A stretch of 33,143 nt of DNA, from positions 1 to 33,143 of the forward strand of contig CASFYR010000030.1 of assembly GCA_949298975.1 (NCBI GenBank). The letters run 5' to 3'. The position numbers and the translations under genes are program-made. Below, piece by piece: positions 1 to 28,577 of the stretch (the stretch's first letter is position 1; every line of letters starts with the position of its first letter). This DNA comes from an uncultured Bacillota bacterium (GTDB taxonomy: Bacteria; Bacillota_I; Bacilli_A; Erysipelotrichales; Erysipelotrichaceae). The notes under the pieces are model-generated. The model did no database searches and was not told the DNA's origin. It saw only the letters and a program-made list of their open reading frames with translations.

Positions 1-392
1 ATCGTTATTGTACCCAGATGGAAATAATTGTTTATCGTTGAAATAACGAAAAACAACGCAGTACCAAAAGCGATATAACAGATAAAGCTAACCAGAAAAT
101 CAAACCAAGAAACATTGCTCTTGCGGCAAAACTCCGTAACCTTTACTCTTGATATCTTCAACAATAAAGTAAAAGGTATCAGCGTTCCGACAATGATAAT
201 GATATATGTCAAATAACCCATGATATTCTTGGTATTGGGGTCAATCATAGCCGATGGATGTTTTATTGTGTAGTACATTTGGAAAACCATTGGCAAAACC
301 AGAACCAGGAGCACATAAAGGAACATGGTCAAACCCACGCTTGAAAATTCCTTTTTGCAGCTTTTCAAAGATACTTTACGTTTTCTTACCAT
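1..392 (-). CDS. Membrane protein, N-terminal part (cut by window edge), possibly CPBP-family
   Basis: This is the start of a minus-strand gene that runs off the left edge, so about 130 residues are visible. It opens with a short basic segment (MVRKRKVSLKSC) followed by three hydrophobic stretches (around LYVLLVLVLPMVF, YIIIIVGTLIPF and FICYIAFGTALFFV). It is therefore a multi-pass membrane protein. The overall look resembles the N-terminus of CPBP/Abi-type intramembrane proteases, but the diagnostic EExxxR and HxxxN motifs would lie outside the window, so the family is a guess. I chose the ATG at 392 because an extended -10 sequence sits exactly 6 bases upstream of it. An in-frame ATG at 410 is the alternative. 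It diverges from the FAD oxidoreductase gene. Confidence 0.6.
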   Translation of the reverse strand, partial: MVRKRKVSLKSCKKEFSSVGLTMFLYVLLVLVLPMVFQMYYTIKHPSAMIDPNTKNIMGYLTYIIIIVGTLIPFTLLLKISRVKVTEFCRKSNVSWFDFLVSFICYIAFGTALFFVISTINNYFHLGTIT

Positions 393-398
393 AAATAA

Positions 399-407
399 AT
401 TATTGCA
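399..407 (-). promoter_or_regulatory. Extended -10 element for a leaderless minus-strand start
   Basis: Read on the minus strand the sequence is TGCAATAAT, an extended -10 (TGn plus AATAAT, one mismatch to TATAAT). It ends 6 bases before the ATG at 392. The -35 region is poor. If the upstream ATG at 410 were the true start this call would fall. Confidence 0.4.
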
Positions 408-435
408 CATTATTCTCGTTTAGAAAATATTAAAG

Positions 436-441
436 TATAAT
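436..441 (+). promoter_or_regulatory. -10 box placing transcription start on the ATG at 448
   Basis: There is a perfect TATAAT hexamer, then six bases (AGAGAC), then ATG. Normal spacing puts the transcription start on or next to the A of the ATG, so the mRNA would be leaderless. No Shine-Dalgarno sequence could fit. Confidence 0.55.
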
Positions 442-447
442 AGAGAC

Positions 448-1995
448 ATGATTTTAATCAAAAATATTCGTCTGACAATTGAAGAAAAAGAAGATACATT
501 ACGCTATAAAACCGCCAGAAAATTAGGAATTGATCCGGGATCTTTTCGTTCTTTCCGCATTGCGCATAAGTCGCTTGATGCCCGTAAAGAACCTTTTTTT
601 AACTATCAGGTCATAGTGGAACTGACGAATGAAAAACGCTTTTTAAAGCGAAACGATATAACGGAATATTTTCCTTTGGATCTTGGTGTTCCTAAAGTTA
701 ATACTTCGATCAGACCGATCGTTATCGGTCTTGGCCCCAGCGGTCTTTTTTGTGCTTACCGTTTACTTGCTGCAGGGATCAGACCGATCGTCATTGAAAG
801 AGGCAGCCGGATTGTCAAGCGTGAAAAAGCGGTTGAACTTTTTACTGATAAGGGTATTTTAGATCCGGAATCCAATGTTCAATATGGCGAAGGCGGCGCC
901 GGAACTTTTTCAGATGCCAAACTTACGACCAGAATCAAAGATCCGCTGATCAATTACATCATTGACGCCCTGATTGCCTTTGGTGCTGATGAAAGCATCG
1001 CTTATGAATCCCATCCTCATATCGGAACCGACAGAATCCGTAATATCATCACTAAAATGACTGACTGGATGATTTCAGAGGGGGCGGATTGTTATTTCGA
1101 TGAAAAAGTTACTGATTTCCTTGTTGAAAACCGACAGATCACCGGCGTTGTTACGAATAATAATCGCTTTGCCAGTCCGATCGTGATCGCGGCATTCGGT
1201 CATAGTGCCTATGACACTTTCACCGCACTGCATCAAAAAGGCGTTTATCTGGAAAATAAAGATATAAGTATTGGTTTCAGGGTTGAGCATCCGCAAAAAA
1301 TGATTGATCTTAATCAATACGGGCCCAAAGCCGCAGCTAAATTAAATATCCCGGCCGAATACTTTTTACGAGCCAAAACAACATCTGGCAAAGGAGTTTA
1401 CAGTTTTTGTATGTGTCCGGGTGGATATGTCATGCCTTCCAGCAGTGATATCGGCGGTATCGTTACTAATGGTATGTCTTTTTCAGATCGCGGTAATGAT
1501 TTAGCCAACAGCGCAATTTTGGCAACAATCAACCAAAGTGATTATGGCAACGATCTTTTCAGCGGTTTTAATTACATCCACAGCATAGAAAAAAACGCTT
1601 ATTTGATTACCAACAGTTATCAGGCTCCTGCGCAAAATATCAAAGACTATCTCAAAAGTCAGACAAATGAACTGATCTTTCCGTCATCTTACTCTTTAGG
1701 TACCGTTAATTACAATTTGAACTATCTTTTCTCTGATAAAATCAATGCAGCATTTCATGAAGCAATTGAATATTTTGATCACCTGATCCCCGGATTTATT
1801 GATCATGGAATTATGGTTGCCCCAGAGACCCGTTCTTCCTGTCCGCTCAGAATTAAGCGCCAGCCTAACGGAGTCAGCATCAATACCGGCGGTCTTTACC
1901 CGATAGGAGAAGGAGCCGGTTATGCCGGGGGAATAATGTCAAGCGCCCTTGACGGAATCAAGGCCGCTGATAAGATCATCGCGCTTTTAGGTTGA
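448..1995 (+). CDS. NAD(FAD)-dependent dehydrogenase, COG2509 family
   Basis: A 515-residue flavoprotein oxidoreductase. A small N-terminal domain of about 85 residues precedes the dinucleotide-binding motif VIGLGPSGLFCA (about 92-103), with the acidic residue at the end of the second strand (VIERGSR). Later come the conserved stretches YGEGGAGTFSDAKL, RVEHPQ and, near the end, APETRSSCPLRI and YPIGEGAGYAGGIMSSALDG. The last is the C-terminal FAD-contacting segment typical of this family. Family members are annotated as uncharacterised FAD-dependent dehydrogenases and the substrate is unknown. The gene is complete. Its ATG lies directly behind a -10 box, so it is probably translated from a leaderless message. 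It runs in the same direction as htrA, 50 bases downstream, which has its own promoter. Confidence 0.88.
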   Translation: MILIKNIRLTIEEKEDTLRYKTARKLGIDPGSFRSFRIAHKSLDARKEPFFNYQVIVELTNEKRFLKRNDITEYFPLDLGVPKVNTSIRPIVIGLGPSGLFCAYRLLAAGIRPIVIERGSRIVKREKAVELFTDKGILDPESNVQYGEGGAGTFSDAKLTTRIKDPLINYIIDALIAFGADESIAYESHPHIGTDRIRNIITKMTDWMISEGADCYFDEKVTDFLVENRQITGVVTNNNRFASPIVIAAFGHSAYDTFTALHQKGVYLENKDISIGFRVEHPQKMIDLNQYGPKAAAKLNIPAEYFLRAKTTSGKGVYSFCMCPGGYVMPSSSDIGGIVTNGMSFSDRGNDLANSAILATINQSDYGNDLFSGFNYIHSIEKNAYLITNSYQAPAQNIKDYLKSQTNELIFPSSYSLGTVNYNLNYLFSDKINAAFHEAIEYFDHLIPGFIDHGIMVAPETRSSCPLRIKRQPNGVSINTGGLYPIGEGAGYAGGIMSSALDGIKAADKIIALLG

Positions 1996-3175: not shown

Positions 3176-3559
3176 ATGAATAAGGAAGAAACCAGACAGA
3201 ATTATTTAGAGGCTATTTATTTTATCGCCCTTAAGAACAAATCAGTCAGAGCTATTGATATTGTTGAATATATGGGTTTTTCAAGACCAACCGTTTCGAT
3301 TGCTTTAAAGCAGTTAAGCGAAGACGGTTATGTTGAGATTCACAACAACCAGATAACTTTGACTGAAACCGGACAAAAAGAAGCCTATCGCATGTATGAA
3401 CGTCATATGCTGATCGCGGAAATATTCATGCGGCTGGGCGTTGATGAAAAAACAGCCTATCACGATGCCTGCATGATCGAACACGACATCAGCGATGAAA
3501 CATTTGCGGCCATCAGACGCGCTTACGCCAACCATAAACAACCTAAAGGACAAGATTAA
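3176..3559 (+). CDS. DtxR/MntR-family metal-dependent transcriptional regulator
   Basis: A 127-residue two-domain repressor of the short MntR type, with no SH3-like third domain. The winged helix spans about 1-65 (recognition region YMGFSRPTVSIALKQLSEDGYVEI) and the dimerisation and metal-binding helices lie at about 66-127. Metal-ligand positions can be aligned with Bacillus subtilis MntR: His77, Glu102 and His103 are kept and Glu12 matches MntR Glu11. However, Asn9 replaces MntR Asp8 and Cys99 replaces MntR Glu99. DtxR-type iron regulators have a Cys at that second position (DACMIEHDIS here). Family membership is clear but the metal sensed (Mn or Fe) is not. No metal transporter lies nearby. 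The stop codon lies within the terminator hairpin. Confidence 0.85.
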   Translation: MNKEETRQNYLEAIYFIALKNKSVRAIDIVEYMGFSRPTVSIALKQLSEDGYVEIHNNQITLTETGQKEAYRMYERHMLIAEIFMRLGVDEKTAYHDACMIEHDISDETFAAIRRAYANHKQPKGQD

Positions 3560-24600: not shown

Positions 24601-24727
24601 GCACTTTGTAATCGGTCAACGCTACCCGGCAATAGCCCATTTCTTTTAGTTTAATGCAAGCTTCTTCAATCTTTATCGTACTGCGTAAAAGCGAAAACGA
24701 GCTGCGCAGATAAAGCAATGTTTTCAT
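21695..24727 (-). CDS. dnaE: DNA polymerase III alpha subunit DnaE
   Basis: A 1010-residue C-family replicative polymerase, shorter than the roughly 1100-1160 residues of most DnaE. The N-terminal PHP domain (1-190) has lost its metal-binding histidines: where active enzymes have HLHVHSEYSLL, this one reads LYLRSSFSLL. The polymerase core is intact, with PGRGSAAGS (331-339), the catalytic pair Asp372 and Asp374 in PDIDIDF, and the third Asp523 in KMDFLGLKNL. Helix-hairpin-helix and OB-fold regions follow (OB about 935-1000). In Bacillota DnaE normally works beside PolC, which is not in this window. The ATG lies 6 bases after a -10 box, so the message is probably leaderless. Confidence 0.96.
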   Translation of the reverse strand: MKTLLYLRSSFSLLRSTIKIEEACIKLKEMGYCRVALTDYKVLSGSICFYNAAKNAGLIPLFGLEIPVDLNGKIVEAVLYARNDEGFRNLMHLSTFLNTKEATIKAAELKNYLKDNLLSIFSDNDIFKDDIPNALALLDANFDKYVIGMSDGSSAGGRKLNAEIKPLLTERKIMSIVTDRAYYLDQSDEKAYAVLKAIGDKKQLDDKDFVYERGHYVKTMDELTRIYEHDDLLMSEHLADNLKIDLILHKTSLPDYYHQTAGDIKNPQAALTALAIKGLKRRLNRETLPDQYQRRLKMELDVIIGMHFANYFLIVYDLVNNARRMGIMVGPGRGSAAGSLVAYALHITEIDPLRYNLYFERFLNPERISMPDIDIDFPDRDRDKMIDYVKEKYGKDHVAHIVTYGTLGAKQVLRDVARVLNYPSIDALAKMVPNDLKITLKRAYNESENFQKKIERDELSRELFKIALKLEGLPRHYSTHAAGIVLSKEALSDIVPLVRVEQDIDSTGFTMEYLESIGLIKMDFLGLKNLSIIADVIKAISQTTPFDLQKIPLDDHKTFKLIKNVDTLGIFQLESAGMQNLIRKLQPATFSDIAVTIALFRPGPMENIPLFLKNRRNPDNIHYLHSDLIPILKDTSGIIIYQEQIMTIARKMASFSYGKADIMRRAMSKKKYDELSGLETEFIAGCLKNGYSEKLAKDVYALIMKFANYGFNKSHSIAYALIAYQQAYLKANYPMFFYTALLNGAINSQTMSASYLNECQRVKQQVAGPDINLSENRYIVKGTAIVMPLCIIKNIGTSTADKIITERRQNGPFHDFSECVFRLKNCDSRITETILASLIDAGAFDCFKLNRKTMNVNLHKMWETKEMLGALSLLGDDFSFQLTNCKEDVKERIKKEKEVLGFVFSTGSIIRVKEQFGYDTKSLYEIGRSYGLVKGFGIIKSIKEYTTKTGEKMCFLKVFDDSGEMDLSIKPSLYHRMRDDLVAAKQKYLYFEGQMYKEYSCRADILEIKE

Positions 24728-24733
24728 ATTTTT

Positions 24734-24739
24734 ATTATA
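24734..24739 (-). promoter_or_regulatory. -10 box of dnaE, predicting a leaderless mRNA
   Basis: On the minus strand TATAAT is followed by six A/T bases and the dnaE ATG. A 4 of 6 match to the -35 (TTTAGA) lies 17 bases upstream. No Shine-Dalgarno sequence is present. Confidence 0.6.
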
Positions 24740-25754: not shown

Positions 25755-28577
25755 ATGGAAGAAGTGAAAAGAATGACCAAAAATAGACATCGCCGTTTTC
25801 AAAAACATTGCGGTCCTCTGAAACCCAAAACCGACCGCAATACAAAACGTCTGCATAAAATACTTATCAAAGTTCAAAAAAGACCGCAGATAAACATAAC
25901 TGAGGCAAGCGCTGACGCTGTTAAAGAGCCAAAGGCAGCCATAATCAAAGAACGGGTCAGCAAATGGCGGCAAAAAAGAAAAAGCAACAGCCAAAATAAA
26001 AAGGATAAAGAACAGCCAAGCGCTGTCATTTCCGGCCGTCAAAGACCGAAAGCCAAAAAAATAACTTTTGTGCTGGCCATCTTTGTCTGGTTTATCATAT
26101 TTTGCGGGATTATTACACTTATCGGCGGTTTGTATCTGGCTAATAAAATGCTGGAAGACAAACCGGAATTCAATGCCGCTGATTTAGTCGCTCCGGATTC
26201 AACGCTGGTCTATGATGCCAACGGCAATGTCATCCAGGAATTAGGTGAATACAAAAGGGAAAACATCGATTACGATCAGCTGCCCAATATTCTCGTCGAT
26301 GCATTTTTATCGATCGAAGACTCCCGATATTTCGAACATTTCGGTTTTGATATCCCCCGTTTCACCAAGGCGGCCATCGAAAATTTAAAATCAGGAAATT
26401 TCGATCAGGGCGGCAGCACCTTTACCATGCAGTTGATCAAGAATACCTATTTCCAGATCGACGCCGGCGACAATTCAACGATTGCGGAAAAAAAGATTTC
26501 CCGCAAATTACAGGAGATCTTTCTAGCCATCGAAGCCGATCATGAATTGAACAAAAAAGAGATCTTCGCTCTTTATGTCAATCGCATTAATTTCGGCAAT
26601 AATATCCGGGGGATCGAAAAAGCGGCCGAGTATTATTTCGGCAAAAGCGCCAAAGATCTCAATCTGTCTGAAGCGGCATTTTTAGCGGGAATTATCAACT
26701 CCCCTAATCTTTGTAACCCATATAATGATCTGATCAAAGACAATCCAAACAGCAGTTACACCAGCCCCGATATCAATTATCTTGCGGAAGGTGAAGCAAG
26801 ACGCAATGAAGTAATCAATATGATGGTCTATCATGGTTATATCACCCAAGAAGAGGCCGATCTGGCCAAATCGATAAAACTGGCCGATCAATTGGCCGGC
26901 GAAAAGAGCATCACCAACCAAAACAGCAAGTATTATCAGGACTATATTGATGCCGTAATTGACGAAGTCATCGAAAAAACCGGTAAAGATCCATATTATA
27001 CTTCGATGAAGATTTACACGAACATGGATCCATATATGCAGAAACTGGTATACGACATCCAAAACGAAAATACCAATATCAAATTCAATCAGCCGCTGAT
27101 GCAAAGCGCGATTGTTTCGATGAATAATCAAAACGGTGCAATTGTTGCTTTGGGAGGCGGGAAGGACGATGGCGAAAGCGGATCGCGCAAATGGAACAGA
27201 GCCACGATGTCCAAGATCCAACCGGGCTCTTCGATCAAACCGGTGATCGATTATGTGTTGGCTTTTGATCAGCTCGGATGGGCGACTACCCATACTCTGG
27301 TCGATCAACCGATCTTCCTTTACGGATCGGATAACTTATTGATTTCCAACTATCATGGCCGCTATAAAGGCGACGTCTTGCTGGAAGAGGCATTGGGCGA
27401 CTCGCTCAACACCACTGCCATCGAAACGCTGGAAGCCGTGGTAGATGCCAAAGGAGAGCAATTTGTCGTTGATTACCTCAACTCCATCGGCATTGACACC
27501 ACCGTGGAAGATTTTGATCTTCAATACGCCATCGGTGGCAATAAGTTATTGGTTACTCCGGTTGAATTAGCTGGCGCTCACGCCATGCTTATCAACTATG
27601 GCAAATACATTGAACCACATACCATCAATAAGATCGTTTTTGCCGACGGCAGTGAATACATTGCCGATACCGAAGGTAAACAGGTCATCAAACCGGGAGC
27701 GGCGTGGATGATGACCCGCTTGCTTTACACCAATGTTTACGGCAGCGTCTACAATTCGATGTATGTATTAAAAACCGGTTATCCGGTCTTTGGCAAAACC
27801 GGCACCACAGACTGGGGCACTTCCGGCCTGTCATACGGCATTCCAAGAGGAGCAAAACGAGATAACTGGTTGGTTTCGTCTACTTCCAATTATACCAACG
27901 TCGTTTGGGTCGGTTTTGATAAACTGGAAAAGGGTTCGTATATGTATAACGATACCAATATCAAAGGCCGGATCAGCCGGATGCTCCTTGATGAAGAAAA
28001 AGAGCATTTCAATTATCAGCCAACCGATCTGGCTAAAACCGATGATGTAAGATCGATCACGCATATTAAGGGAGTTTATCCTTATGTTGAACCGAAGGCC
28101 GGCACCAGAGTCACTGGTTATATTTTAAAAGAATTCTATCAATTATATCCGGTCAGCAGTATCAAATACGAACACAAAAAGAAAGAACTGACAGGGGCAA
28201 GCGTCTCTATCAACAACAATATCGTCAATATTGAATGGATCTTGACCGGCGAAGAAAAAGACGGGGAAAAAGATATTTCCGCAATCAGCAACACCGGAAG
28301 AGTCATCAAGGCGACCGGCCGGTCGTTCTTCCCGACAACGATTTGGGATGATCCTAAGGCAACCTATTACGCTGAAATCTACGTCAACGGCAAACTGGAG
28401 CAATCGCTTTCAACCGCCGCTTTGACCGCTTCGGTCGATTTGTCCTATCTGGCGCCGATCAATATCCCCGGACTTGGTGATCTGATTCCTTCTTTGGGCA
28501 ACGTCCAGGGAAACATTCGCGTGTGTGCCTGGTATAGCGAAAACACCAAGAACAAATACTGTTACGATATTCAGTAA
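25755..28577 (+). CDS. Class A penicillin-binding protein (transglycosylase/transpeptidase)
   Basis: A 940-residue cell-wall synthase. A long, strongly basic cytoplasmic tail (1-102) precedes one membrane helix (about 103-127). The GT51 transglycosylase domain has EDSRYFEHFG (188-197, catalytic Glu188) and QGGSTFTMQ (218-226). The transpeptidase domain has Ser492 and Lys495 in PGSSIKP, SLN (550-552) and KTG (681-683). A C-terminal domain of about 150 residues looks like a beta-sandwich. All catalytic motifs are intact. Start: the ATG at 25746 overlaps the -10 box, so 25755 is preferred; an ATG at 25773 is a further possibility. Confidence 0.95.
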   Translation: MEEVKRMTKNRHRRFQKHCGPLKPKTDRNTKRLHKILIKVQKRPQINITEASADAVKEPKAAIIKERVSKWRQKRKSNSQNKKDKEQPSAVISGRQRPKAKKITFVLAIFVWFIIFCGIITLIGGLYLANKMLEDKPEFNAADLVAPDSTLVYDANGNVIQELGEYKRENIDYDQLPNILVDAFLSIEDSRYFEHFGFDIPRFTKAAIENLKSGNFDQGGSTFTMQLIKNTYFQIDAGDNSTIAEKKISRKLQEIFLAIEADHELNKKEIFALYVNRINFGNNIRGIEKAAEYYFGKSAKDLNLSEAAFLAGIINSPNLCNPYNDLIKDNPNSSYTSPDINYLAEGEARRNEVINMMVYHGYITQEEADLAKSIKLADQLAGEKSITNQNSKYYQDYIDAVIDEVIEKTGKDPYYTSMKIYTNMDPYMQKLVYDIQNENTNIKFNQPLMQSAIVSMNNQNGAIVALGGGKDDGESGSRKWNRATMSKIQPGSSIKPVIDYVLAFDQLGWATTHTLVDQPIFLYGSDNLLISNYHGRYKGDVLLEEALGDSLNTTAIETLEAVVDAKGEQFVVDYLNSIGIDTTVEDFDLQYAIGGNKLLVTPVELAGAHAMLINYGKYIEPHTINKIVFADGSEYIADTEGKQVIKPGAAWMMTRLLYTNVYGSVYNSMYVLKTGYPVFGKTGTTDWGTSGLSYGIPRGAKRDNWLVSSTSNYTNVVWVGFDKLEKGSYMYNDTNIKGRISRMLLDEEKEHFNYQPTDLAKTDDVRSITHIKGVYPYVEPKAGTRVTGYILKEFYQLYPVSSIKYEHKKKELTGASVSINNNIVNIEWILTGEEKDGEKDISAISNTGRVIKATGRSFFPTTIWDDPKATYYAEIYVNGKLEQSLSTAALTASVDLSYLAPINIPGLGDLIPSLGNVQGNIRVCAWYSENTKNKYCYDIQ

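Follow-up and report, generated by a model that had tools for sequence, protein, structure and literature searches.

The window analysed here, a contig of 33,143 nucleotides taken in its entirety from a 1.30-Mb genome in 89 contigs (G000, genus g1 of the Erysipelotrichaceae), begins with two divergent genes whose start codons, ATG 392 (-) and ATG 448 (+), lie close together. The initial annotation proposed that both genes are leaderless, on the grounds that only 55 bases separate the two ATG codons, that a -10-like hexamer ends 6 bases before each of them (AATAAT with an extended TGn on the minus strand, TATAAT on the plus strand), that neither gene has a Shine-Dalgarno (SD) sequence, and that the equal spacing is hard to explain by chance. 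The spacer length and both hexamers were borne out when the sequence was read again, as was the lack of SD motifs: GGAG, GAGG and AGGA are absent from positions -20 to -4 of the plus start, and reading the sequence at the minus start revealed no SD motif either. The explanation that we consider likely is that both genes are leaderless, served by two interlocked and oppositely oriented sigma-A promoters in the spacer, and that they belong to a widely used class. This explanation draws on -10 sites kept in relatives, on a genome-wide class of SD-less genes and on an SD-led version of the pair in another genus (G045). The features of the locus are collected in Table 1.

Table 1. Predicted genes and promoter elements at the divergent locus (window coordinates).
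Feature	Position	Strand	Basis and remarks
CPBP/Rce1-like membrane protease gene, N-terminal part	3..392	-	ATG 392; contig end cuts gene
Spacer with both promoters	393..447	.	55 bp; -35 regions interlock at ~413-418 (+) and ~422-427 (-), positions expected from a 17-bp spacing, both weak in G000
-10 element AATAAT	399..404	-	6 nt (398-393) before ATG 392-390; sequence and profile
TGTGC, extended -10 (TRTGn)	405..409	-	Creates upstream ATG 410; TG there in 7/10 genomes
In-frame upstream ATG 410	408..410	-	Opens longest frame; probably not the start codon
-10 element TATAAT	436..441	+	6 nt before ATG 448; sequence; hexamer at 6-8 nt in 10/10 genomes
Six-base gap AGAGAC	442..447	+	Transcription start expected at A of ATG 448 from the usual distance
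FAD-dependent protein gene, 515 aa, predicted leaderless	448..1995	+	ORF; PF21688, E=2.7e-56

The plus gene begins at a correctly placed start codon, given that residue 1 agrees with relatives and that no in-frame start lies upstream. The minus gene runs for about 130 codons before the contig ends, and a Pfam search of its cut product returned no match; three full-length relatives (from G004, G010 and G045) match PF02517, the family of CPBP/Rce1-like membrane proteases.

How surprising is the symmetry of the two hexamers? We shuffled the 55-bp spacer 20,000 times, keeping its dinucleotide composition, and looked for TATAAT-like hexamers (a match of at least 5/6, with A2 and T6 required): they stood at 6 nt on both sides in a fraction of 0.0006 of the shuffles, and at equal distances anywhere between 3 and 12 nt in a fraction of 0.008. 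A single-sided hexamer at 6 nt is much easier to obtain in so AT-rich a spacer, being found in about 3% of the shuffles, and could lend some credit to the idea that the hexamers are due to chance and that each gene has a long SD-less leader, transcribed from a promoter located farther upstream and within the opposite gene. We consider this idea highly implausible, in view of two observations set out below: the sites hold their place at 6-8 nt although hardly anything else in the spacers can be aligned, and a genome-wide peak falls at exactly 6 nt.

The initial annotation had suggested comparing the intergenic region across relatives, and in that comparison both -10 sites are kept at 6-8 nt in most genomes. 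The divergent pair is present in 8/8 other g1 genomes and in G010, of the sister genus g3, with 49-59% identity of the FAD protein across the pair-bearing relatives, and little of the spacer aligns among them besides the kept layout. In all ten genomes (g1 including G000, plus G010), a TATAAT-like hexamer lies 6, 7 or 8 nt before the FAD start. We also scored the spacers with a -10 position profile. It was trained on 59 leaderless-like genes from G000, G008 and G010, a set that leaves out the locus under study. On the plus side, the best site falls at 6-8 nt in 9/10 genomes, and the site at 7 nt in G007 ranks second; on the minus side, it falls at 6-8 nt in 7/10, at 10 nt in G002 and G007, and the second-best site of G004 lies at 6 nt. 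A -10 element at 6-8 nt, as expected of leaderless genes, is thus present on both sides, each at 6 nt in G000. Additionally, when 6 of the 10 loci, picked for their same orientation, are aligned, most of the columns that do not vary belong to the -10 elements of the two sides or to the start codons.

The layout is not peculiar to this locus. We surveyed portions of five genomes, all from this family or order, with a home-made gene caller that takes frames of at least 110 aa from their first ATG, and since first-ATG errors blur the counts, the figures that follow are rough shares. Among operon-leading genes, a TATAAT-like hexamer stands at exactly 6 nt in 21/176 cases in G000 (3.8 expected, p 3.8e-10), in 17/140 in G008 (2.6 expected) and in 23/122 in G010 (3.2 expected); the peak is weak in G039 (8/143, 2.1 expected, p 0.001), and none is seen in the sister-family genome G049 (2/168, 4.6 expected) or in E. 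coli (0/105). G000 therefore has the positional -10 peak beside starts that marks a genome using a leaderless class. None of the 61 spacing-6 genes of G000, G008 and G010 has an SD motif, a result that is partly forced because the hexamer fills that space. For genes inside operons in G000, the hexamer occurs at 6 nt in 2/213, which equals background, and an SD motif in 122/213; in G008 the corresponding hexamer count, 7/145, is not quite at background. The leaderless-like state also tends to be common to best-hit orthologues, in a classification that admits several start codons and spacings, so that some calls are false: orthologues of leaderless-like genes share it in 8/10 cases in G010 versus 11/53 for other genes (p 6e-4), in 7/16 versus 10/83 in G008 (p 0.006) and, less clearly, in 3/15 versus 3/76 in G039 (p 0.054); 11 of those 15 G039 genes are SD-led.

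Elsewhere in the window, TAGAAT ends 6 nt before the ATG at 3176 (+), where there is no SD motif, and the G008 orthologue has the same layout; TATAAT also lies 6 nt before the start of a minus gene at 24727, and G008 keeps it there. A divergent plus frame listed from 24718 overlaps the 5' end of that minus gene (24718-24739), and its true start is probably further in. Another leaderless-like layout is seen at 25755 (+), where an ATG nine bases into the listed frame is preceded at 7 nt by TAGAAT.

These counts bear on the claim that the equal spacing is more than chance, which stands insofar as the arrangement is rare in shuffles and falls insofar as the equality was given a special meaning. 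Since a spacing of 6 is the genome-wide peak, two leaderless genes would be expected to show equal spacing in any case; it arises because the -10-to-start distance is fixed in leaderless genes, and not from a coupling of the two sides. Doubly leaderless-like divergent pairs number 3/37 in G000, 3/38 in G008 (one of the three, with starts 407 bp apart and an SD-like GGAGGG, is probably false), 4/27 in G010 and 1/27 in G039, compared with about 2.4, 4.4, 2.7 and 0.6, respectively, predicted by independence from the single-gene rates of the same count, from which the window's own pair was left out, since the contig ends inside its minus gene. With no excess of double pairs over independence, coupling can be discarded. 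In the same connection, three compact divergent pairs (L006:2160-2196, L176:11632-11678 and L211:4273-4315, with gaps of 35, 45 and 41 bp) show a TATAAT-like site at 6 nt from each of their two starts, and their spacers resemble inverted repeats that could be operators.

Of the two genes, the plus gene has the heavier evidence for leaderlessness. The longest frame of the minus gene begins at ATG 410 and not at 392, a point on which the initial annotation has to be corrected. It could thus be argued that only the plus gene is leaderless and that the minus gene starts at ATG 410, behind a short leader from a minus-strand TATACT, in an arrangement resembling a symmetric bidirectional promoter. 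A promoter scan did find TTGATT-16-TATACT on the minus strand, which would place the RNA start near 427, and this TATACT (439-434) overlaps the plus TATAAT, as it also does the plus -10 in G003, G008 and G010. TATACT is nevertheless present in only 4/10 genomes, whereas the near -10 is kept; comparison of the relatives' sequences shows no start codon at the 410 position in G001, G004 and G010; and the TRTG of the extended -10 is sufficient to account for an ATG at this place. We regard this alternative as unlikely, and we rejected ATG 410 as the likely start, both for its absence from three relatives and for its overlap with the extended -10. Conservation places the minus start at 392, which the relatives favour, with less certainty than for the plus start since ATG 410 exists in G000. 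If transcription begins from the conserved -10, ATG 410 would be absent from the mRNA altogether. This carries a warning for annotation, in that the TRTG of an extended -10 can make a false upstream start in leaderless genes.

A different possibility is that the minus mRNA has an SD-less leader of about 10 nt, transcribed from a second AATAAT located 16 nt upstream of ATG 392. Tandem hexamers occur in 3/10 genomes, the far one at 17 nt in G004 and at 18 nt in G007, where it would likewise leave a leader of about 10 nt, and in G004 the far site outscores the near one in the profile (7.3 versus 5.1). However, the far hexamer is missing from the other 7 genomes; the near site of G000 scores 8.2, with the far site outside the top three; and in both G004 and G007 a TTGCAn -35 is positioned 17 bp from the near minus -10. 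We therefore find this possibility quite improbable, and retain the near -10 as the predicted origin of a leaderless minus mRNA. The minus side nonetheless varies: in G002 and G007, where 10 nt separate the -10 from the chosen start, the leader would be about 3 nt long, and the profile scores of G006 and G008 are weak (0.9 and 1.7 bits). Hexamers matching TTGACA in 4 or 5 of 6 positions lie at 17-18 bp on the minus side in 8/10 genomes, reaching p 0.02 against shuffles in only 3/10, and the match in G000 is only 3-of-6. On the plus side no -35 element rises above chance, and in G000 this promoter also lacks an extended -10. In G002 (L038), a three-codon frame, ATG ACG AAA TGA, sits between the minus -10 and the chosen start, and its stop overlaps the chosen ATG (ATGA).

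According to the interpretation that we favour, sigma-A polymerase bound to either promoter would start RNA some 7 nt past the hexamer, a position that on both sides coincides with the A of the start codon; a -10-to-start distance of 7 bp is reported to be optimal (PMC12825309). Both mRNAs, encoding the FAD-dependent protein and the CPBP-like protease, would then be leaderless, and ribosomes would recognise their 5'-terminal AUG with no SD pairing. Loading of leaderless mRNAs is described as likely involving direct interaction with the 70S ribosome, dependent on initiation factors 2 and 3 (PMC6431027). The pair would be one case of a leaderless gene class used widely in genus g1 and in g3 (G010). 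Since each -35 region lies inside the spacer of the other promoter, only one polymerase could probably be accommodated at a time. In this sense the locus recalls the bidirectional promoters of E. coli, where transcription is divergent and one polymerase excludes the other (PMC12825309). In those promoters, however, start sites are reported to be most often 18 bp apart, with 10 and 23 bp also common (PMC12825309), and here the -10 positions predict start sites 56 bp apart. That distance, together with the presence of TATACT in 4/10 genomes, sets the locus apart from a symmetric promoter of the E. coli type, with start sites 10-23 bp apart and overlapping -10s.

Leaderless genes and divergent leaderless pairs are already known, and the new part is the lineage: our literature search, judged by title and abstract, found no report of leaderless genes in Erysipelotrichaceae, and in the available text of PMC10783764 the sole mention of Erysipelotrichia is a table entry on anti-SD class. 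A broader literature search, on leaderless genes and transcription start sites in clostridia and Bacillota, gave no papers. With the predictions made here, Erysipelotrichaceae would join the Bacillota families in which leaderless genes form a genome-wide class. In streptococci, also Bacillota, mapped leaderless mRNAs are reported to make up 8.6% in S. pyogenes and 9% in S. agalactiae and S. pneumoniae, and 81% of the S. pyogenes set is also leaderless in S. agalactiae (PMC6431027); 5' ends were mapped in that work, whereas here they are predicted from sequence. The TA-led genes of Zheng et al. 2011, which have TANNNT about 10-12 bp upstream of the start and were interpreted as leaderless, are predicted to be concentrated, within Firmicutes, in Lactobacillales and Mycoplasma (PMC3160421). 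They resemble our pair in their -10-like signal, and Erysipelotrichaceae is not among the lineages mentioned in the available part of that study (PMC3160421). A divergent precedent comes from Mycobacterium tuberculosis, in which the start sites of the neighbours prpD and Rv1129c each coincide with a start codon (PMC3898074). There, the start codons used sit inside the annotated genes and one of the two is described as regulating its neighbour (PMC3898074), whereas neither gene of our pair is regulator-like.

A contrast within the family comes from G045, which belongs to another genus of Erysipelotrichaceae and has the same gene pair with its -10 sites 18 and 19 nt from the starts; AGAGGTG and AAAGGAAGTG, both SD motifs, lie between these sites and the starts. 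In G045, then, these promoters seem to give rise to short SD leaders, and in the lineage of the window to no leader at all. Loss of the anti-SD can be dismissed as the cause of the SD-less starts: of the 9 g1 genomes searched, G004 is the only one with a 16S match (there is none in G000), and at its 16S 3' end GGATCACCTCCTTTCT is present with CCTCC intact, so both initiation modes coexist. It is tempting to hypothesize, though we hold this only tentatively, that the lineage converted a substantial set of SD-led genes, the two genes of the pair among them, to the leaderless state while retaining an intact anti-SD and SD-led operon genes. Relatives such as G045 and G039 keep SD-led versions locus by locus, which, if the hypothesis is true, would make the switch of initiation mode traceable, and paired loci that are SD-led in one relative and leaderless in another offer a handle on how initiation modes interchange.

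Beyond the pair-bearing genomes, the nearest FAD start candidate in 20 more distant whole-genome relatives has the hexamer in 0/20, an SD motif in 8 and neither in 12; in three of the 20, the hexamer occurs at another, less probable candidate. The nearest start was also classified in 80 FAD relatives belonging to named genomes: it is SD-led in 38, has neither signal in 36, is unclassified in 2 and is leaderless-like in 4, one of which (L063) is the contig of G006 again. In Solobacterium, three FAD relatives (L067, L069 and L128) have GATAAT 8 nt before the nearest start candidate, which may reflect chance or a second leaderless case.
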